From contig JAHQIY010000008.1 in the NCBI GenBank assembly GCA_019054805.1, positions 1,783,501 to 1,847,500 on the forward strand: a DNA stretch of 64,000 nucleotides, written 5' to 3'. This DNA is from Brachionus manjavacas. Its lineage: Eukaryota; Rotifera; Eurotatoria; Ploima; Brachionidae. Made by a program: the position numbers and the translations under genes. Within the stretch, counting starts at the first letter, position 1; every line of letters begins with the position of its first letter. This document shows positions 853 through 64,000 of this stretch, piece after piece. Below the pieces are notes generated by a model that worked only from the letters and a program-made list of their open reading frames with translations, did no database searches and was not told where the DNA came from.

Positions 853-1375
853 ATGTTTGCAAAAAGTGGATTTCTAAAAGACTTTAGCAATATTTCCAAG
901 TATTCCGTAGCTTTAACATTATTTTTAATCGTTGTTTCTATGTGCGAAAATGTAAGAGCTATGGATAACCAATATTCGGATCTTCCACCGCCACCAGCCA
1001 AGCCAGAAAGATTCACCAGTAAGCAGCAATTGAAGGAATACTTGGTTAAATTGCACGAATACTACGCCATTATCGGTCGACCACGCTTCGGTCGATCCCA
1101 AAACCTATTCAATGAAAATATTCAAAGCTCTGAGTTAGGCACAGATGCCAAAGATAACTCGATCCCAGTCACTTTGGCAATCAACGTCATGGACTTCAAT
1201 GGAGATGGATTTCTCACCAAAAAAGAACTTCGTAATTTCGTTAAATTGGTTGAAGACTATTTGTAAGTGATAAATTAATTTCTTAAATTAAAATACATAG
1301 AAAAAATGTACTCTGTGTGAAAAAAATTCACAATTTTTAATTGTTGTATTTTTTTTGTTTAGTCATCTTGAATAA
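853..1375 (+). CDS. NPF: Neuropeptide F precursor with a C-terminal EF-hand
   Basis: This encodes a secreted neuropeptide precursor. Residues 1-36 form a signal sequence with hydrophobic core LTLFLIVV, probably cut after VRA. The NPF peptide follows to about residue 79 and ends in EYYAIIGRPRF, then Gly-80 as amide donor and Arg-81 as cleavage site. The TSK..L..YL...EYY spacing and RPRF-amide end are typical of protostome NPF. The C-terminal part then holds DFNGDGFLTKKE (residues 114-125), a canonical 12-residue EF-hand loop with Asp1, Asn3, Asp5, Gly6 and Glu12, flanked by helix-forming residues. NPF precursors normally end in a short peptide without such a motif. The reading frame runs to a stop at 1263-1265, but a strong donor GTAAGT at 1263 and an acceptor at 1361-1362 suggest splicing to an end reading DYFHLE at 1375 (140 residues). 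The unspliced end would be DYL. NPF identity is secure; the splice is likely. Confidence 0.88.
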
Positions 1376-1397: not shown

Positions 1398-1403
1398 AAT
1401 AAA
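1398..1403 (+). terminator. Poly(A) signal of the first NPF gene
   Basis: AATAAA lies about 23 bases after the spliced stop codon and fits the end of the first NPF transcript. Such hexamers also arise by chance in DNA this AT-rich. Confidence 0.5.
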
Positions 1404-2874: not shown

Positions 2875-3150
2875 ATGAATGTGAAAATTTTGCTCCCAAT
2901 TTTGTTTGGTTTAATTGTTTGTCAACTAATAGCCGAAGCAGTGTCGTTCGGAATTAGAGGCACGTCGGACGAAATGCCCGAGCGACCAGCTGTTTTTACG
3001 AGCAAAAAGGAGCTAATTGATTACATTAAGCGAGTAAACGAATATTATGGCAAGGTTGGACGACCAAGATTTGGCAAGCGCAACTATCCATTATTTGGAA
3101 ACAAATTTAATCATCAGTATAGAGACTCAAACGAATGGAATTTTAATTAA
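2875..3150 (+). CDS. NPF: Neuropeptide F precursor, second copy
   Basis: A 91-residue secreted precursor in a single exon. Residues 1-23 are a signal sequence (KILLPILFGLIVCQL core). The peptide ends in YIKRVNEYYGKVGRPRF, followed by Gly-67 for amidation and Lys-Arg (68-69) for cleavage, then a short 22-residue tail. It matches the first NPF in TSK.(Q/E)L.(E/D)Y(L/I)..(L/V).EYY....GRPRFG, so the two genes are tandem paralogues on the same strand, 1.5 kb apart. Unlike the first copy there is no EF-hand and cleavage is dibasic. No intron interrupts the RPRF codons. As a known family function, NPF signals through NPY-like G-protein-coupled receptors in feeding and related behaviour. Confidence 0.9.
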   Translation: MNVKILLPILFGLIVCQLIAEAVSFGIRGTSDEMPERPAVFTSKKELIDYIKRVNEYYGKVGRPRFGKRNYPLFGNKFNHQYRDSNEWNFN

Positions 3151-3251
3151 CTTAAATAATTTACAACCTAATGAACAAAATGTGAACCAATTTATTCAGA
3201 AGTTAGGATTTTTACAAACTTAACAATCTTTTTAAATTTTTTTTTATTTTT

Positions 3252-3257
3252 AATAAA
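3252..3257 (+). terminator. Poly(A) signal of the second NPF gene
   Basis: AATAAA about 100 bases after the stop codon, the first such hexamer downstream, so the likely cleavage signal. Confidence 0.45.
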
Positions 3258-4594
3258 CTTTTAATCATTTAAAAATTGATCGCATTCTTACAATTTAAAG
3301 ATTTTTTTCTCATACCAAAAATTCAAAATAGCAAAACAGTTAAAATAAAAGATAATAAATTAAAATTTTACTTGTGAATATTACATCTATTTTATTCAAA
3401 TAAATTTATTAAAATTTCATGTAATGAACAAAATTTCAACTAAATGAATTAAAAATTAGCCGATTATCTTAAAACTGACTCTTTTGAGTAGAAGAAATTG
3501 TTCTAATATTCCAACTAACAGATCAATAGCACTAAATGATGTTGATAAATAATAGCCCAAGAAGTGCAAGAGTTCTGACTTGAAAAATATTATTTGAAAG
3601 AAAGAAAATCCTTTATAATGTCAATAGATGTAAAAAAATATTTTTATTATTTATTTTAATTTAAATTTTCGAAAAAGTATGATAAATTCTATTAATTTGT
3701 GTGTATTAAAAAAAATCTGCCATTTTTTTTATAATATTAGTTTAAAAAGATAAAAATGTTATTTTTTATAAAAATTTTGGTAATAAAATGTCACGTCTCA
3801 TTTGAATGAATCAATTTAAACTTTTCTAGGCTCGGATTTTGGGAATTATTGAAAAAAATCAAACCAAAAATACTAAATTTAACTTTAAGAAGTTATTTGG
3901 AATATGATCTAAAAATGTAAAGTGAGTGATTTAAATAGGAGTAGACAATTGTATTTCTTCCGCCAGATATACAAGTTGCTCTCTTTGCAGAGGATTTTTG
4001 CTTTTGGAACAAAAAGAAATAAAAAAAGGAGTCGATTATTTGTGAGTTTCTCTTTATTTCTTGGAAACAAACTCGATCCAAAACTTACAGACACAGATGT
4101 TAAAAGTGGGTTTTAGTCATTTGTTTTTTATTTTATTTTTGTTCTATTTAAAGACATTAATTAAAAAAATAAGAGAGATTTTAAAGATTCACATAAGTTC
4201 GCAATTATAGTTCAGAAGGTAGAAAATAAATCTTAAATTAAAAATTTCTTGATCAATCTGATAATTTATTTCTAAAAATGTGTGATATAGCGACATCTTA
4301 GTCGATATCACTGGAAAGTTGATTAACTTAACCATGAGCGTTTGAGTTAATAAGGAGCATAAATAGCTGCTCCAACACGTCTAACGAAAGATCGGATAGA
4401 CAGGCCCAAGGGTACTAATGTAAACATTACAAAATGTAACAAAGTTTTTTGTCAAATTATCCAAAAATAAAGAAAAGTTTACTAATTTGAATTTATTGAT
4501 TTTTATTGAATTTCGGTGTTTTTTTCACCAAGCTTCACACTATTCAAATATTAAAAAAAAATTTCAAATTTGAAATGGAGTATGCAAGTAATGG
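3258..4594. other. Intergenic, no gene seen
   Basis: AT-rich DNA. Short open frames around 3.9-4.1 kb look like nothing known and overlap on both strands. A slightly more GC-rich patch at about 4285-4430 may be an unrecognised repeat. Confidence 0.4.
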
Positions 4595-7545: not shown

Positions 7546-8510
7546 TCAAGTAGGATCTACCACTAGTGCTGCTGCTGCCAAAGTGGGTCTTCCTCGACTA
7601 CGTTTTTTTCCTAATGGCTTGTTGACCGAAGCCATAGGAATCTGGCCATCTCCAATCTTTAACTTTGAGCACACTCCAATGACGTGCTTGCAAATGTAAT
7701 TCTTGCTGTTCCAGTCGCAACTGCATCGCGACAATTTCCATTGCGTTTTTTTGATTTTAATTTCATAAAGGCTGTTTGTTTGCTTAGATAAAACGTCAAA
7801 GGTCTTCCAAATGCATTTGTCTCTAGCATCTTTAAACGCTTCAACATCTTTCTTTTGTAACTTTTTTTTTGTTCGGATGGTATGTAAAAATGAGGCTTAA
7901 CGAGCAACATACTTTTATCTTTTTCAAGCCACTCAAATGCTGCATCGTAGTCTTTTTAAGCGATAAGCGGAACAAATTGGAACATTTTGCGATTGAGATT
8001 TGGTTGCTCATCTGTTCCAGGACTGCGATCGAGGCTCCAGTTTTTGATGATTTCATGCATGGCACAGTGGCAAAAATCTTCCATCGGCATCTGTCTTTGG
8101 AACGTCGAATGTGACTTGATGACTTTATTCGTTGATTCAACTGCATTATTAGTGACTGGAATTCGCTCGTCTTCGTCTGTGAAGAAACCATGATACCATC
8201 CTGGATTCTGTTTGATCCACCATTCGTCGAAATAAAACATGAACACAGTTACTGAGTGATCTTTCTTGTTAAGCCACTTGCGCCGCCAAATGAGATATGC
8301 GTGCTCAAAGACATCTTTGCTCGTAAATTGCTGCATAATGACGATTTCATTCAACAACTGATCGCGATGAGTTTTCGTGACTTTTGACAAAGCGTCTTCC
8401 ACCTTTGTTTTCATGTGGTACCAACACATGATCCTCTCTGGTTTAAAGCCGAGAGCTAATCCAAAGCCATTTGAAATAGCCTGAGCTGCGCCTGCGATCA
8501 CATATAACAA
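7546..8510 (-). pseudogene. MULE-type transposase with SWIM zinc finger, frameshifted
   Basis: Three overlapping reading frames on the - strand together give the middle and C-terminal parts of a Mutator-like transposase. The first frame (8510 down to 7956) has AGAAQAISNGFGLALG, MCWYHMKTKVEDAL, WWIKQNPGWYHGFFTDEDE and TNNAVESTNKVIKSH, the typical TNN..E..N..IK block near the end of the catalytic domain. The last frame has CSCDWNSKNYICKHVIGV, which fits the CxCx(n)CxH SWIM zinc finger, followed by RGRPTLAAAAL. At least two frameshifts break the protein, so it is inactive. A possible 3' splice site (CGCAG) sits just before AGAAQ, so an upstream exon may be lost or lie further right. Confidence 0.8.
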
Positions 8511-8900
8511 AGTAATGAAATTTTAAAATCAGGTTTAAAAAATTCAAAACATAGTAGAGCAAAAAAATTGAATTCATTGGAATAATTAACTATTTAAAAA
8601 ATTAAATAATATATTTAAGAAAATTAAAAATTAAATAATATTTCTTCTATTCTTTTGCCCTAGCAATAATATCAACAATTTTGTAAACGTCAATTTCTTG
8701 TAATTCAGATGACTCAATTCATTATGCTTATTTCATTTAATCTTTCTTGACCTGTCCTGCTTCGAAGTTAAATTTTTATTCTTTTTAAAGCAGAAAAAGT
8801 TCTCTCCAATTATTTTTCCAAATAGTATACATGCTTCTAGAAAATAACTTTGTGTCTAAAAAATATTTTTCAATAATGAATAATCTAAAAAGTCTTTAAA

Positions 8901-11647: not shown

Positions 11648-14359
11648 TCATCTAAGTAGCTTGTCGATTCTTTTTTTAAAAATGTTTGTATTGCTGACAC
11701 TCTTTGTCACCGCATCCAGCGTGTTCCAGTTTCCTGCTGTTCGGTTAATGAAAAAGTTGTGTCTAACTCCACAATTGCGGATCAGCTGTCGCTCGATAGC
11801 CTTATGGCAAGTTCTTGTGTTCCCTGCCGGGCTTTCTAGACCGTCCGAAGACAGCTTTTGATCCCCATTTATGAATGTCACCCGATCATGACGATGCTGA
11901 ATTTTGTGTAGTTGGATGAGATCACCACGCCTGCGTCTCTCTTCTAGGGTACTCCAACCAAGAGCCTCTCTTCTCTTGACGTATGGTTTATCCTTCAGTT
12001 CTGGTACTAGTCAAAGGTCAGGCATATCATTGATAAAGATGATGAAGAGCAGAGGACCAAGCACTGATCCTTGTGGTACGCCGCTCGTGACTGGTACCCA
12101 ATCAGAAACTACTTCACCTATCACTACACGCTGTTTGCGATCGCTTAGGAAGCAGCGGATCCACTTTATGAGTAAATCTGGAAGACCATATGCTGCTAGT
12201 TTCACAAGTAGCAGTTCATGCGACACTTTGTCAAATGCTTTCTCAAAGTCCAAATAGATGACATCCGCCGGCTGCCTTTGACTCATGCAGTTTGTCAAGA
12301 AATCCATTGTTTCTAAAAGATTGGTAACACAAGATTTGTGAGCCATGAAACCATGATGTTTATCCGTGATGAGCTTGTTCTTCTCAAGATGCTTGACGAT
12401 ATAATCCTTAATTAGCGACTCTAACACTTTGCAAGGAACGGAGGTTAGAGAGACAGGACGATAGTTGCTTCCAATAGTTCTGCTACCCTTTTTATGTATT
12501 TGTGATACATTAGCAATTTTCCAATCAGTAGGCACTTCCGATAAGATCAAAGACTGCTTGAAGACAAAGGAAAGTGGTCCGGCTAGCGGCTCTGCGCACA
12601 TTTTCAGAGCGTGTGTGTTGACCTGATCGACTCCAGCTGACTTATCACTGTTTAAAATCCTAAGTTTATTCAATACCATGTCAGGAGTAACGACGTCCTC
12701 AATTACAAAACACGGATCAGGTTTACCTCTCACTTGGAAATTCGACTCCGCGGTTTTCACGACTTCTCTCAGGGTCGGTTGCTCAAACACCGAGAAGAAG
12801 AAAGAGTTAAGTCTATCGCAAATGCCTTCTTTGTCCGTAATGATTTGGTTATTCACATCCATCAAAGCTGCTATGCATTCTCTTGAAGAATAGTGCCGGT
12901 TCATATAAGAGTATATCAGCTTTGGATTTTATTTCGAAGCTTGCGCGAGCTTTAACTCGTAATCAATAATTGCTCTCTTCACAACGTACTTGACCCGTTT
13001 GCATAAGTCTCTGTGCTTGCTCGCTAGCTGCTCACAATGATTGTCGATACATTTACGGATAAAATTTCGCCTTTTTTGACGAACCAGTGAAGCAATCTCA
13101 GGATTCCACCACGGTGGCTTGGTGTTTAGCGTTCGGATCCGCCGTCTTTTGACGAATGATTTGGCGGCTTCGCGGAAAATATGTAAGAAATCTGAGTACA
13201 AATCTTTGACGGACCCTTTCTCTGATATACGCCACCAATCATGATTTTTGAAGAACTGATTCATAGCGGCAAAGTCACCACTTCGCCAATGTAGTGCTCT
13301 GCTGTCGAAACTTTGCGGACGTGCTGCTTTAGAATGAAGCTGAAAGCTCAAACTGCAGTGGTATCTGGAGGCATTGCCGTCTAGAGGTGGACCCCTTTTA
13401 ACGTCTGACACTCGGTTCGGATCACTTACTAGAACAAGGTCTTGCAGACTGGTTGGTTGGTCATTACAGAAGAACGTTTCTTCTTTTACCATTTGCACAA
13501 GACTCGAGTCACTGATGGCTCTGCCAACATGGTAACACGCTGATTGTACGTCCAGGACAGGTGCGCCGAACTCGTTCCATTCAGCATGCGGCAAATTGAA
13601 ATCGCCCATGATAATTATTCCCGAAAACTTCCTGTTTCGTAATAAGTTAGTCGTGAATTCAAGTGAGGTGGCTATGGCAGTGTCCAAATCGCTTGGGGAA
13701 ATGCTGGAAATTTGATCTGGAGGCCTGTAGATGCATCCAACTAATAATGGTTTCTCATTTTCGATTCTTAAAGTTGCCCATATTTGCTCACAGCTGAGAT
13801 CCATAAAACTGACTTCTGACGTCCTGTAGGCGTCATAGCACGACTTAATATACAAGCAAACTCCTCCGCCTCTCTTGTCGCCTAAACGATCTTTTCTAAA
13901 AAGCTGATAGCTGTCCATCTCGGCAACCGAACTCTCATCAAACCAGGTCTCCGTGATGCCGATGATACTTGGCGTCAAACTGGCTGCTATCGTTTTAAGC
14001 AGTGGCATTTTATTATTTAAGCTCGTAGCATTTGTATACCAAAAGCTGATGCCTCCTGCATATGTAGATTGTGGTATTGGACAAAGCATTTCAGATGAAG
14101 AGCTGTTAGATAAAGCATTCAAAGGTTCAGATTCTGTTTCACACGAAGGAGACGATGAAGATGACGAAACAGCGGAGTTGTAGTTCGACTCATCAGAGTA
14201 ACTGTTCTGGAGGATGCATGTTTCATTGATTGATGATGAAAATTTTGGAACTGATCGAACTTTTTCAATTGGACTATTTTGATATTTGAATAAGACATGT
14301 GAAGAAGGTAAATTCTTTTCTTGTGATGGCATTTTAGGACCAAATGAGGCGATGGTCAT
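11648..14359 (-). pseudogene. LINE ORF2: endonuclease-reverse transcriptase with catalytic deletion
   Basis: ORF2 starts near 14359. The apurinic-type endonuclease shows TNATSLNNK, GITETWFDE, GGGVCLYIK, YRPPDQ, MGDFNLPHAEWNEFG and SRYHCSL in order. The reverse transcriptase follows with [46 protein letters not shown] and [20 protein letters not shown]. An in-frame TAA follows ASK at about 12926. At about 12010 the frame stops after FINDMPDL, and the sequence jumps to LKDKPYVKRREALGWSTLEE, the C-terminal region, ending at RIDKLLR. The (F/Y)ADD catalytic box and thumb, normally just after FIND, are missing, roughly 170-200 residues. Confidence 0.85.
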
Positions 14360-14521
14360 ACCAGTCAGCTCCTTTCGCTGCTAGACACTATCCGGGACAG
14401 ATACAATAAGTCTCAGTTCACCATTTCTAATACCCCAGAATCTCTTCTTATTGTCTTCGCAATTTTTCACCTTGACAATTCGTCCGTTTACTGTTGCTGT
14501 TCCGGTCAGTTCATTGTTTCT

Positions 14522-15226
14522 TCAATCCCGTTCTTCCCGAAGTTTCTTATGTGCCATACGCTCTGACGGCGTGAGATTTTCGTTGATGTAAACATTCTTC
14601 CATTCTTCAGAATTCCGGAGTTTTTTGCTTTTGACTAGCATGTCCAACTTGGCACTGACGCTTTCCATTTCAACGACGAATAGTACTCGCTCTTTGTTGG
14701 ATCCAGTTGATTCTTGTGTCCGAATAGCCGTTTTTTTCCTTAAACATCTTGCTTTCTTAACTTTTGTCTCCGGAACCCCAATTGCGACCGCAAGTTTTTT
14801 TGCCAAAATCATCTCCTCATCCTCTTTGTACAGGTTCACTGGCAAAGCAGCAATCACATTCTGAGCTCTCTCCTCCTTTCTCCTTAGCTCGGTTGCCACG
14901 GTTGCCATTATGACGGCCGCTTTCTCTTTCTGGTGTGCGTTACCAGCTACCAAATTTACCCAGTTGAGAGATGCATTCTCAGTTGCCGATTGGTCATTAG
15001 TTTTACTTACAGTGTCAACAAGTTTGCTCAACGTCTCGATTGTCGTTTTTTGGGACTCGTTTTCTTTTTCCAAAGTTTCGATTTTTTGGACAAGAACTTG
15101 CATGCATTTGCTTATTTTGGAGAGCCAATTATGGTGGTTTTTGCCGACTTCAGCCGTAGCTGAAGGAAGCCTTGGCCAATTTGCTTCTTGCAGAAAGCTA
15201 AGGTCCATCTGTTGATGAACAGCCAT
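14522..15226 (-). CDS. LINE ORF1 protein
   Basis: An open frame of 234 residues precedes ORF2 and is separated from it by about 160 bases. Residues 40-80 form a predicted coiled coil (KISKCMQVLVQKIETLEKEN and on), followed by a basic domain with NVIAALPVNLYKEDEEMI, VGVPETKVKKARCLRKK, RVLFVVEMESVSAKLDMLV, and a C-terminal NENLTPSERMAHKKLREERD. The last two resemble the RNA-binding ORF1 domain of many CR1/L2 and jockey-type LINEs, which form trimers and bind element RNA. The frame is intact, unlike ORF2. Confidence 0.75.
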   Translation of the reverse strand: MAVHQQMDLSFLQEANWPRLPSATAEVGKNHHNWLSKISKCMQVLVQKIETLEKENESQKTTIETLSKLVDTVSKTNDQSATENASLNWVNLVAGNAHQKEKAAVIMATVATELRRKEERAQNVIAALPVNLYKEDEEMILAKKLAVAIGVPETKVKKARCLRKKTAIRTQESTGSNKERVLFVVEMESVSAKLDMLVKSKKLRNSEEWKNVYINENLTPSERMAHKKLREERD

Positions 15227-15287
15227 TGAATTATTTGTTTTAATTTATAAAATTTCTTGTTGATTTTTTTCTTTAATATATATTATT

Positions 15288-54306: not shown

Positions 54307-57263
54307 ATGTATATTACGAATTCAATTGACATGAACGAAGATTTCAACCAGGCTGAATGCAAAGCGTACTCAAGTAAGCAGTCGCCAAAAATTTAAACAT
54401 CATCCAAAACTAGCAGACCTTGTGGCAATGAGGCTAGAAATTCGACAATAAAAAAACTCCACTCTTAATTCTTTTCTTTACTTCTTATTTGCCCCATTTG
54501 ATCTTAATTAAAAGAAAAAGGAGAAAAAATGCAAAGCATTTAATTTAGTTTATTGAGGAATTTAATAAAAGTAGTAGTGTGTTGTAGTAGGCAAAAACGG
54601 CTTGTTGAGTCCAGTGAAGCAGCGTGGCCGCCGAAAGCCCACAAATCAAAGTTTGCAGTCTTGAGTGACAAGCGCAAATAATTGCTGTACTTTTGTGTTT
54701 GTTCTAATCGCTTTCAAATGGGCCGCCTAAGTCACTACTTGAAGTACATTAAGAGTATACTTATGCAGGAACCGGGATTTACTTATTTCAGTTGCAAATT
54801 AGCAACTTCCCCTTTTGCTATTTAATCAATGAGGAAATGGCTCGATTTTGCTCTCAAAAGTGATCCTCCGATCTCTCTGCATGACTTTCAAATTATCACC
54901 TTTGCTTCAATCTAAGCCCATTAATCGATTAATAATAGGCTCTCTCTCTCTTCTCTCTCTCTCTCTCTCTTTTGTCCACACACAACTGTTCTCCACATAC
55001 ACAGGATAAATTTTTGTTTCTTTAAAGAAAAATCAATATGTTTCGGCTGTGGCAATTTGATTCATGATCAGTACATATTGCGTGTGGCGCCCGACTTGGA
55101 ATGGCACGCCAAGTGTCTCAAATGCCACGAGTGCGGCCACTACCTGGACGAAAACTGCACCTGTTTTGTTCGCAACGGCAAGACCTACTGTAAAATGGAC
55201 TATGTCAGGTAAGCTATCATCACCATTACACATAGAATAGCAAAAAAAGTTAAAATGAGAAAATATAAAAATTGACCCCAGCAAAATCTGATGAGCTCAG
55301 TGAACCAAGTGCCACTTGCATCCTATGCACATTTGATTGTTCGCCCCTAAGCCTTTAAGACTGCGACATTGGCTCTCAGGTCGAAAATAAATCTACTATA
55401 AAGAATTAAGGACTTCAAATGGGCTGACTCAATCGAATTAAATTTAAAACTGTACAAATCATTGATAAGATCACTCTTTGACTACTGTTTTATTATTCCA
55501 AACGTTGGAACAGAGAAGTAAAAAATCAAGACTATCTGTAATATAAAGGAAACAATCCAAACTTAAAAAGATTTATAACTCCATTTGATAAAATTATTGT
55601 CTAATTTAAAACTAATTTTTTGTAGACTATTTTTTTTTTTTTTTTTTTTTTTTTATCCGATTTTTCACCAAGTTCCTTTTTAATACTTTTGTAATCAATC
55701 AATTTTTATACTAGCATAGATTTTTCATGAGGGCTTAAACGAAGGTCTAGAACCATTCGGACGTGCCCAGGGGTCCTCCCCTAAATTATTTAAAAAAAAA
55801 AAAAAAAAAATAAAGGAAACAATCACCGCCATAAAACCCTATTTTGCTCACTCAATCTATATTACTACTAACATTAACCAAATCAGTTTTTTTTTTAATT
55901 TATTTATAATTTTTTAATTGAATCTTTCTATCAATTTAAAATTGTAACATTTTTCTCGTTGCAAGAGGGTTCAAACGAAGGCTAATGCCATTCGGACAAA
56001 CTCTGGGAAAACCCAAATTTATTTATTAAAAAAAAAACTAAATTAATTAAGAAATAAATGAGACAACAAAAAATTAATTTATTTAACGAAAGATTGTTCA
56101 GCAAGAAATGCTTCAAATGCAAGGAGTGCTTTAGCAAAAACGATTTTGTCATGCGGGCCAACAGTCGAATCTACCACACAGACTGCTTTCGTTGCTTGGT
56201 CTGTAGCAAGCAGTTGGCGCCCGGCGACGAGTTCGCGTTGAAAGAAGAGGGCCTCGTGTGCAAGTACGACATAGACATGTACGAGAAGAATAACGGCCTG
56301 ATGGCAGCCAACAACTCGTGCCAGAACATAACCAACCTGCCGCCGCCTCCTCTCGGCCAAGCGAGCAACAAGGCGGCAAAGTGCGAGGAGCTGGCCCCCA
56401 ACGACTACGAGAACAACCATCACCAGGAGTGTGCGTCGCCGAGCGGCATGCAGCAGCAGGCGCCGCCGCCGCCAATGGGCCTCATGGGCTGCGGGTCGCA
56501 CATGTCAATGGCGCCGATGCATCAGAGCGCGCGGCACATGAACAACTCGACGGCCACCGGCAACAACTCGAGTGGCAGCGCTCACCGCAAGGACAAGACG
56601 ACTCGGGTGCGCACCGTCCTCAACGAGAAACAACTGCACACGCTCAGAACCTGCTACGGCGCCAACCCGCGTCCTGACGCTCTCATGAAAGAACAACTTG
56701 TCGAAATGACCGGCCTTAGTCCACGCGTCATCCGCGTCTGGTTCCAGAACAAACGATGCAAGGACAAAAAAAAAACCATACTCATAAAACAAATGCAAGA
56801 GCAGCAAAAAGTAATTATTGAAAATTAATTTTACACCTTAGGCTTCAATGTGTCAAAATAAATAGGGATCAGTGGGAAAAAAAATTAAATAAAATGAGAA
56901 AAATTTTGCTGTTTTTTTATTTTTTTTTTTAATTTGAAATTTTATTTTTAGAATCGTCAGACAATCGGTCATGGCATTCAAATGGTGGCCACGAGTCCGA
57001 TGCGCAACGACATCAACAGTCTGGGACCTGGCTCGCAGATCGAAATTCAGCAAAGCGCCACTGCATATCAAAACTCGATGAGCTGGAATTTGCCGATGAG
57101 TGCCATGGGTCAAATGGGGCAGCATCACTCGGCGAGCTACGAGCAAATGATGGGCTTTGGCTCGGACGAAGAGGAGTGCTATGATCAAATGTCAGATCAA
57201 AATGGTGACGATAGTGTGAGCAGTGTGGGCGCTTTGGACGACGCGCGAATCCAGCAACTCTAG
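54307..57263 (+). CDS. isl: Islet LIM-homeodomain transcription factor
   Basis: Islet (tailup) specifies motor and other neurons and binds LIM partner proteins. Four exons (54307-54373, 55028-55208, 56093-56810, 56952-57263) give 425 residues. LIM1 (about 25-82) reads [30 protein letters not shown] and [18 protein letters not shown]2 (about 89-142) reads [28 protein letters not shown] and CKYD, with all zinc ligands present. The homeodomain (about 250-310) has [40 protein letters not shown] and [19 protein letters not shown], nearly identical to vertebrate ISL1. A linker rich in Pro, Gln, Asn and His separates LIM2 from the homeodomain. The first exon ([13 protein letters not shown]) is inferred from a donor that joins in frame to KKSIC. 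Exons 3 and 4 are far more GC-rich than the surroundings. Confidence 0.93.
55390..56040 (+). mobile_element. LINE 3' fragments in Islet intron 2
   Basis: At 55440-55560 the + strand reads [20 protein letters not shown] then GTEK, stop, [12 protein letters not shown], typical of the C-terminal part of jockey/L1-like reverse transcriptases. The 3' UTR ends with CATTCGGACGTGCCCAGGGG and an A-rich tail (about 55790-55810). A second partial copy follows directly (55814-56040) and ends with CCATTCGGACAAACTCTGGG and another A-run. A run of about 30 T lies at 55627. Dead insertions, spliced out with the intron. Confidence 0.6.
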
Positions 57264-63155: not shown

Positions 63156-63664
63156 CTAGTAACAATTATCATAGATTAGATTATGATGGGCCTGTGGAAT
63201 ATGCTGGGTGGCAAACGACGGATGCATGGGCATTTGGACATGCTGGCCTTGCTGTTGACTTTGCTCAGGTCGAACAAGCATATTTTTCTTTTTGTCTTTG
63301 CATCGTTTGTTCTGGAACCAAACGCGGATCACCCGAGGATTCAGGCCGGTCAGCTCGACCAGTTGTTCCTTCATGAGAGCGTCGGGCCGCGGATTAGCGC
63401 CGTAGCAGGCGCGCAACGTGTGCAGCTGCTTCTCGTTGAGCACGGTCCTGATCCGCGCCGGCTTGTGACTACTCTGGTGGTTGACTTTGAGCAGCGAGCT
63501 GGTCGAGTAGTTGCTCTGGAACGACGGCTTGCTCACCTTGCTTGCCACAGCCTTTTTTTTGCTCCTATTCAGCCCGCTCTCGCCAACTGAATTCTCTTCG
63601 CACACTGAATTGTCGTTGTCGTCATCGTCCTGCTCCACTTCGTCATCACTCACACTCCTATCGT
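63156..63664 (-). CDS. isl: Second Islet homeodomain gene, last exon only
   Basis: The 3' terminal exon of a LIM-homeodomain gene on the - strand. It begins at a clear acceptor (TTCTGTTTCAG) at 63664. An acidic stretch ([13 protein letters not shown]) precedes the homeodomain [40 protein letters not shown] and [19 protein letters not shown], which differs from the first Islet at only a few positions. The tail ([17 protein letters not shown]) is short and ends IYDNCY. The LIM domains must lie on upstream exons beyond the right edge of the window. It is a diverged paralogue, oriented tail to tail with the first. Confidence 0.92.
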
Positions 63665-64000
63665 CTGAAACAGAACAAAAAAATTTAGTTTTTTTTTTTT
63701 TTTTCCTTTTAAAAAAAGGGTTTATTAACGCTCGATTTAAATGTGGCCATATGCTCTATTATCTAACACTCAAGTGCTCAAGAGAGAAATAGAAAAAAAA
63801 AGTCAAGTCAAGCAGAAAATTGATAAGTATATATTCACATTTTGTTGTTGTTGTTGTTGTTTTATGTGGCCAAATGTCCTTGTTTGTTTAGTGATAACAA
63901 AAAATATTTACAAATTAGATTAAATGGATTTGTTGCTCTACTAAACTGGTCCAATAAAAATAACAAGCACACAAAACGAGCAGTCTGTGAAATAGTTTCC
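63665..64000 (-). other. Intron of the second Islet gene
   Basis: Sequence 5' of the homeodomain exon on the - strand, with a polypyrimidine tract next to the acceptor. No further exon is seen before the window ends. Confidence 0.6.

Follow-up and report, generated by a model that had tools for sequence, protein, structure and literature searches.

In the rotifer Brachionus manjavacas, a single coding frame encodes both neuropeptide F (NPF) and a full EF-hand calcium loop behind it, and a second NPF gene on another contig carries the same layout. The joint frame, which the earlier note had read from the letters of the window (the whole 64,000-nucleotide stretch analysed, positions 1,783,501 to 1,847,500 of contig JAHQIY010000008.1 in assembly GCA_019054805.1), was confirmed by translation and by Pfam profiles and is real. 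The gene in the window is referred to here as NPF1, its tandem copy as NPF2 and the gene on the second contig as NPF3; their features are as follows, in positions of the window unless another locus is named.

853-960, plus strand: NPF1 signal peptide, residues 1-36, with the h-region SVALTLFLIVVSMC (crude hydrophobicity rule; cut after ENVRA placed by eye)
961-1089, plus strand: mature NPF region, residues 37-79, ending IIGRPRF (PF00159 and PDB 1k8v; putative N-terminal limit)
1090-1095, plus strand: Gly-Arg amidation/cleavage site, RFGR↓S, of the RxxR type (sequence; predicted cleavage)
1096-1161, plus strand: polar linker, residues 82-103 (alignment with the NPF3 linker at shuffle level, p 0.29)
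1162-1191, plus strand: putative entering helix of the EF-hand, IPVTLAINVM (Pfam EF-hand_1 from residue 109)
1192-1227, plus strand: 12-residue EF-hand loop DFNGDGFLTKKE (translation, Pfam, signature)
1228-1262, plus strand: putative exiting helix LRNFVKLVEDY and two bases of a split codon (translation)
1263-1362, plus strand: predicted 100-bp phase-2 intron GTAAGT...TTTTTTTTGTTTAG, GC 0.18 (splice-site sequence)
1363-1375, plus strand: predicted final coding stretch, leading to the end DYFHLE and stop (sequence)
1398-1403, plus strand: poly(A) signal AATAAA (sequence)
2875-3150, plus strand: tandem copy NPF2, with signal peptide, NPF ending VGRPRFGKR and short tail (translation, Pfam)
L002 1429-1711 and 1762-1825: predicted coding parts of NPF3, protein end FGFLDLNGDNAISLAEFKRIFDKESIAE (sequence)

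Unspliced, the NPF1 frame (853-1266, plus strand) gives 137 residues in the order signal peptide, NPF, polar linker and EF-hand; the predicted spliced coding parts are 853-1262 and 1363-1375 (plus strand). The hormone ends in YYAIIGRPRFG-R, with F79 at 1087-1089 and G80-R81 at 1090-1095, and the first Asp (residue 114) of the loop at 1192-1227 lies 33 residues past R81, as had been claimed. The family assignment was provided by Hormone_3 (PF00159), which matched residues 45-80 with E 3.7e-13 and 49.7 bits (Pfam cut-off 28.7), and by the PDB sequence search, in which neuropeptide F 1k8v was matched with E 0.001; NCBIfam gave zero matches for NPF1 and NPF2. A hydrophobic signal stretch was recognized by the crude hydrophobicity rule in NPF1 and by eye in NPF2 and NPF3.

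The segment 1180-1375 comprises the EF-hand, an intron-like gap of 100 bp (1263-1362) and 13 coding bases up to the TAA at 1375, and the protein would end in VEDYFHLE if spliced and in VEDYL if unspliced. The EF-hand is complete with or without splicing. Under the rule GT[AG][AT]G, no donor-like site was detected in the NPF1 exon between the NPF end and the donor at 1263, and the donor-like sites found at 952 and 1019 are both located upstream of the NPF end. The GC content is 0.376 in the tail and 0.391 in the signal peptide and NPF, against 0.17-0.18 in the predicted intron and its flanks. NPY/NPF genes usually have an intron inside the RPRF codons; these codons are free of an intron in all three NPF genes of this genome (853-1089, 2875-3072 and L002 1429-1620).

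The EF-hand of NPF1 was matched by EF-hand_5 (E 3.5e-5, 23.5 bits), EF-hand_1 (E 6.1e-5, 22.7 bits) and EF-hand_6 (E 4.2e-4, 20.3 bits), all below the respective Pfam curated cut-offs of 25.9, 25.4 and 25. The profile search clearly recovers, at E 3.5e-5 to 4.2e-4, the motif that the earlier note had called a canonical EF-hand, but places it above no curated cut-off. Only Hormone_3 and EF-hand families were matched in NPF1 at E ≤10 in Pfam, and no nucleobindin family was among them. Against the PDB, the best whole-chain E-value with EF-hand proteins was 7.4e-6, a value summed over several EF-hands of the chain, and the best single stretch gave E 0.012. The PROSITE signature PS00018 is present in both the NPF1 and the NPF3 loop (DFNGDGFLTKKEL and DLNGDNAISLAEF); in six-frame open reading frames of at least 30 residues in the window it had one match in 45,295 residues, namely that in NPF1. 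The side-chain ligand positions 1, 3, 5, 9 and 12 are occupied by D-N-D-T-E in NPF1 and by D-N-D-S-E in NPF3. A single EF-like motif was found in the NPF1 stretch, with no second EF-hand. The structure model of NPF1 placed helices at residues 104-111 and 123-136, with pLDDT below 50 almost throughout, and was discarded with its mean pLDDT of 45.6.

Besides NPF1, which is on contig C8, a search of the genome (114,169,980 bases in 61 contigs) with the precursor turned up NPF2, the tandem copy, and NPF3, on contig C2 (G000:C2); PF00159 likewise placed NPF1, NPF2 and NPF3 above its cut-off genome-wide, with three weak matches in addition. Three out of four published B. plicatilis primers (table in PMC11219915) were matched exactly in this genome: CuZnSOD forward at a single site, CuZnSOD reverse in L012, 169 bases away from it, and catalase forward at one site, with a second site at 3 mismatches and one hit of the reversed control; the catalase reverse primer was absent from the 3-kb stretch L013. 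On these matches the genome is taken to be that of B. plicatilis itself or of a very near sibling. The spliced NPF3 protein matched Hormone_3 with E 2.1e-10 and 40.9 bits (Pfam cut-off 28.7). NPF3 also carries a lone EF-hand, DLNGDNAISLAE, in which all calcium-ligand positions are kept and the loop is interrupted by a predicted phase-1 intron of 50 bp (GTAAGTG...TTTTAAG). Its EF-hand_5 match reached E 4.3e-5 and 23.2 bits (cut-off 25.9) and its EF-hand_1 match 19.2 bits (cut-off 25.4). Over both genes the EF-hand E-values are 3.5e-5 to 8.5e-4, and the scores remain 2.4-6.2 bits below the Pfam curated cut-offs. EF-hand proteins were also matched by NPF3 in the PDB (best whole-chain E 5.8e-5), and the GC content of its tail is 0.595 and 0.453 in the two exons, against 0.239 downstream. 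All three hormones end in an amidation site with a basic residue, GRPRFGR in NPF1 and GRPRFGKR in NPF2 and NPF3. Of the three NPF genes found, NPF1 and NPF3, on two contigs, thus have the lone EF-hand tail, and as a layout common to two old paralogs it is not a single-gene oddity. That the signature is merely a random match is barely conceivable: the scores below the Pfam cut-offs would fit it, but when each tail was shuffled 200,000 times the signature arose in only 147 cases for NPF1 and 195 for NPF3, rates that put both by chance at about 1e-6, and EF-hand_5 has E near 4e-5 in NPF1 and in NPF3.

A base rate for lone EF-hands was taken from an exon-wise EF-hand_5 scan of the genome in which 150 of 301 candidates were scored, these 150 forming 107 clusters taken with 900 bases on each side. 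Within the stretches taken, 82 of the 107 clusters had two or more EF-like motifs and 25 a single one, and some of the latter resemble multi-EF families with diverged partners; diverged partner EF-hands or far exons can mimic lone EF-hands, and intron-split loops like that of NPF3 may escape the scan. The scan lists NPF1 without NPF3, probably because the intron splits the NPF3 loop. Among 140 frames with the strict signature, a signal peptide before the first EF-hand was indicated by a crude rule, applied to single exons only, in two, NPF1 and L034, the latter with three EF-hands. In the same material, a small protein, MSYYKFRNISGMDHSIDRNEY..EFSLIDRNRNGRIDYHEF.., in which one clear EF-hand is combined with an end rich in tyrosine and glycine, was seen in repeated copies at G000:C3:2584688-2615173 (7 hits) and G000:C2:4399102-4406040 (3 hits), and a multi-copy family (L042, L046, L048-L051, L061, L109, L120) has frames of 325-335 residues with the sole detected EF-hand at the C-terminus.

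A lone EF-hand terminal exon ending in GILFTLIDTNSDGKLSFSELYQFFDETN and a stop was observed about 15.3 kb downstream of NPF3 on the same strand (L064 802-981, G000:C2:8410613-8410792); among same-strand frames of at least 30 residues, about 7.8 kb upstream of this exon held no convincing first exon or NPF. A search for relatives gave 7 pattern matches in viral contigs and 67 in genome contigs, of which none was confirmed. Elsewhere in the window, two open reading frames on opposite strands (56058-56828 and 63156-63755) share a near-identical homeodomain stretch, LIM-homeobox Islet-like by eye, and 7546-8522 and 11648-15244 contain, also by eye, transposase-like open reading frames and a LINE-like element in which segments for endonuclease and reverse transcriptase are recognizable. 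The sole COX1-family match in the assembly (G000:C21:120555-121901) lies within a frame of 667 residues that is open in the standard code, so that contig C21 may come from a bacterial contaminant and the assembly may lack the mitochondrial genome.

The tandem copy NPF2 matched Hormone_3 with 43.0 bits (cut-off 28.7), and the earlier claim that it lacks the EF-hand was upheld. No Pfam EF-hand match was obtained for 2875-3150 and no EF-hand protein of the PDB was matched by NPF2, in both cases at E ≤10. Frameshift-tolerant alignment detected no EF-hand remnant on its 3' side (3076-3275), where the scores were reached by 88 of 100 and 41 of 100 shuffles. Decay of an EF-hand behind NPF2 is not claimed, the remnant score being at the level of base shuffles.

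The NPF1 and NPF3 precursors are 38% identical over residues 40-84, with 14 of 31 positions of the NPF core identical, and their linkers are similar only at shuffle level (p 0.29). The EF-hand stretches, designated EF1 in NPF1 and EF3 in NPF3, share 5 of 28 residues in an ungapped alignment (p 0.0004, 5,000 shuffles), and their alignment score of 31 was reached by 2.7% of 3,000 shuffles. At the same time, when EF1 and EF3 were aligned with 194 other EF stretches from this genome, the mean scores were 33.4 and 35.4, both above the 31 of the pair itself. The view of EF1 and EF3 as close relatives is thus unsupported by sequence, 113 (against EF1) and 117 (against EF3) of the 194 others equalling or beating that score. 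As their likeness does not exceed that of typical EF-hands in this genome, the case for a common origin is made by the layout, and it is likewise the layout, and not the sequence, that favours a single gain. No clear candidate for a donor gene emerged from the genome, the best scores being 67 (L092, against EF1) and 66 (L083, against EF3). Precursor alignment scores were 109 for NPF1-NPF3, 104 for NPF1-NPF2 and 82 for NPF2-NPF3. The earlier note took the difference between the tandem copies for a gain or loss after duplication; as NPF1 aligns about equally with NPF3 and NPF2, either NPF2 may have lost the EF-hand or its gain may predate the split between NPF1 and NPF3.

Acquisition of an EF-hand by NPF1 and NPF3 independently, which fits any proposed function, appears improbable to us. 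It would accord with EF1 and EF3 being at least as distant from each other as typical EF-hands here are, with the different positions of the predicted introns (that of NPF1 follows the EF-hand, that of NPF3 interrupts the loop) and with the exiting helix, which is like an NPF helix in the case of EF1 and not in that of EF3. However, short EF-hands quickly lose mutual similarity, the ungapped EF1-EF3 alignment does beat shuffles, although any EF-hand pair may do so, and two arrivals at the same site in the same kind of precursor would be a strange coincidence if no origin were shared.

The helix resemblance concerns the exiting helix of EF1, FLTKKELRNFVKLVEDYF (1210-1262), and the helix of NPF2, FTSKKELIDYIKRVNEYY (2995-3048), with an ungapped score of 48, a likeness noticed post hoc as the best of six comparisons. 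That score was reached by 1 of 3,000 shuffles of the long tail and by 0 of 100,000 shuffles of the EF stretch alone. EF1 ranked top of 197 genome EF stretches (EF1 itself being counted in two forms) against the NPF2 helix, with 35 as the best other score, and 33 of 54 bases agree between the two helices. The scores of EF1 against NPF1 and NPF3 were 33 (5 of 3,000 shuffles) and 32 (17 of 3,000), and EF3 showed no such likeness, its scores being reached by 31-50% of shuffles. Construction of the NPF1 EF-hand in place, from a duplicated NPF helix as exiting helix and a new calcium loop, with a separate gain in NPF3, is nevertheless highly unlikely. If true, it would mean that a hormone repeat turned into a calcium-binding tail and that such a tail was selected twice.

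The usual layout of an NPY/NPF precursor is a signal peptide, the hormone and a plain flanking peptide. In bilaterians, as far as the accessible text of PMC5627052 states, the hormone lies directly behind the signal peptide. The rotifer genes share with these precursors the signal peptide, NPF, GRPRFG amidation signal and C-terminal flanking peptide, and differ in the EF-hand that two of the three encode within this flanking peptide. The earlier note knew of no such precursor with a calcium-binding module, and in the open-access literature searched no NPF/NPY precursor with an EF-hand was found. While no earlier report of this combination was found, neuropeptide precursors with an EF-hand are already known as a kind, in a snail and as nucleobindin/nesfatin.

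The snail precursor is one that we take to be HCS2. According to its cited title, the paper of Bogdanov et al. 1998 (pmid 9622259) describes a snail gene that encodes neuropeptides and an EF-hand region, and the precursor was later called pleurin (PMC8398477, in its accessible part). The shared trait, a neuropeptide gene also encoding an EF-hand region, is known here from this title and not from sequence, and there is no evidence that the snail gene is related to NPF1 or NPF3. Pleurin precursors, in the accessible description of those of the slug Deroceras, contain several PRXamide peptides, unlike NPF1 with its single RPRFamide peptide. Nucleobindin-2/nesfatin-1, as outlined in the parts consulted of PMC9004410 and PMC5627052, is likewise a secreted precursor with cleavage sites, a satiety peptide and EF-hands, but it is a multidomain protein with a leucine zipper and another peptide, whereas the rotifer precursors have 137-140 residues and one EF-hand. 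Granins offer a possible parallel, as they may concentrate cargo of the regulated pathway in response to calcium; chromogranin B, as far as the text available from PMC9526250 goes, differs in binding calcium via acidic patches, with no EF-hand identified.

The reading that we prefer, with a probability of about 45%, is that the lone EF-hand of the NPF prohormone acts as a calcium-responsive folding or association module in the secretory pathway. The NPF1 or NPF3 precursor would enter the endoplasmic reticulum, a site of high free calcium, where the loop would bind calcium and then fold. Lone EF-hands tend to pair, and the precursors could accordingly associate tail-to-tail, an association that might help to fold or concentrate them or sort them into regulated granules. 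The folded EF-hand would shield the inner basic pairs (KK in NPF1, KR in NPF3) from convertases until cleavage at RFGR↓S or GKR↓S released NPF, which would then be amidated. The concentrations quoted in the accessible part of PMC9526250, about 130 uM calcium in the trans-Golgi and about 400 uM in the endoplasmic reticulum, could suffice to load a weak lone EF-hand. That source, in the same part, also makes the case that chromogranin can condense without calcium, a point that speaks against a simple aggregation model. Moreover, NPF2 has no such tail and NPFs elsewhere are not known to carry one, so the tail is unneeded for making NPF.

Two other functions of the tail were weighed against this module. 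The EF-hand part could be released once NPF has been excised, as a secreted peptide of its own that buffers granule calcium or acts extracellularly as a second messenger peptide, a proposal that we regard as unlikely but worth considering. In each gene a convertase-type site stands right behind NPF (RFGR↓S in NPF1, GKR↓S in NPF3), the snail precursor combines neuropeptides with an EF-hand region by its title, and PMC5455113, which cites the snail paper, ties pleurin to calcium regulation in its accessible text. However, the inner basic pairs, KK in EF1 and KR in EF3, could destroy such a peptide, the tails have neither the amidation site nor the cysteine pair that mark bioactive peptides, and those of NPF1 and NPF3 share little beyond the loop pattern. 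A passive relic is likewise rather unlikely; on this view an exon from a calcium-binding gene was fused to the precursor long ago, and its EF-hand has since been tolerated as a spacer. Precursor regions outside the hormone evolve fast, NPF2 has no EF-hand and the linker is unconserved, all of which would suit a relic, but the old paralogs NPF1 and NPF3 have both kept the full set of ligands and a frame open throughout while their linkers are similar only at shuffle level.

NPY/NPF peptides are among the best-studied hormone families, and an EF-hand flank in two old paralogs would link granule calcium to the packing or processing of such a hormone. As small, clonal animals with sequenced genomes, rotifers could soon allow conservation and peptidomics of these precursors to be checked. 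Together with the snail gene, as known from its title, and with nucleobindin, the rotifer genes would suggest a recurrent origin of EF-hand tails in neuropeptide precursors.
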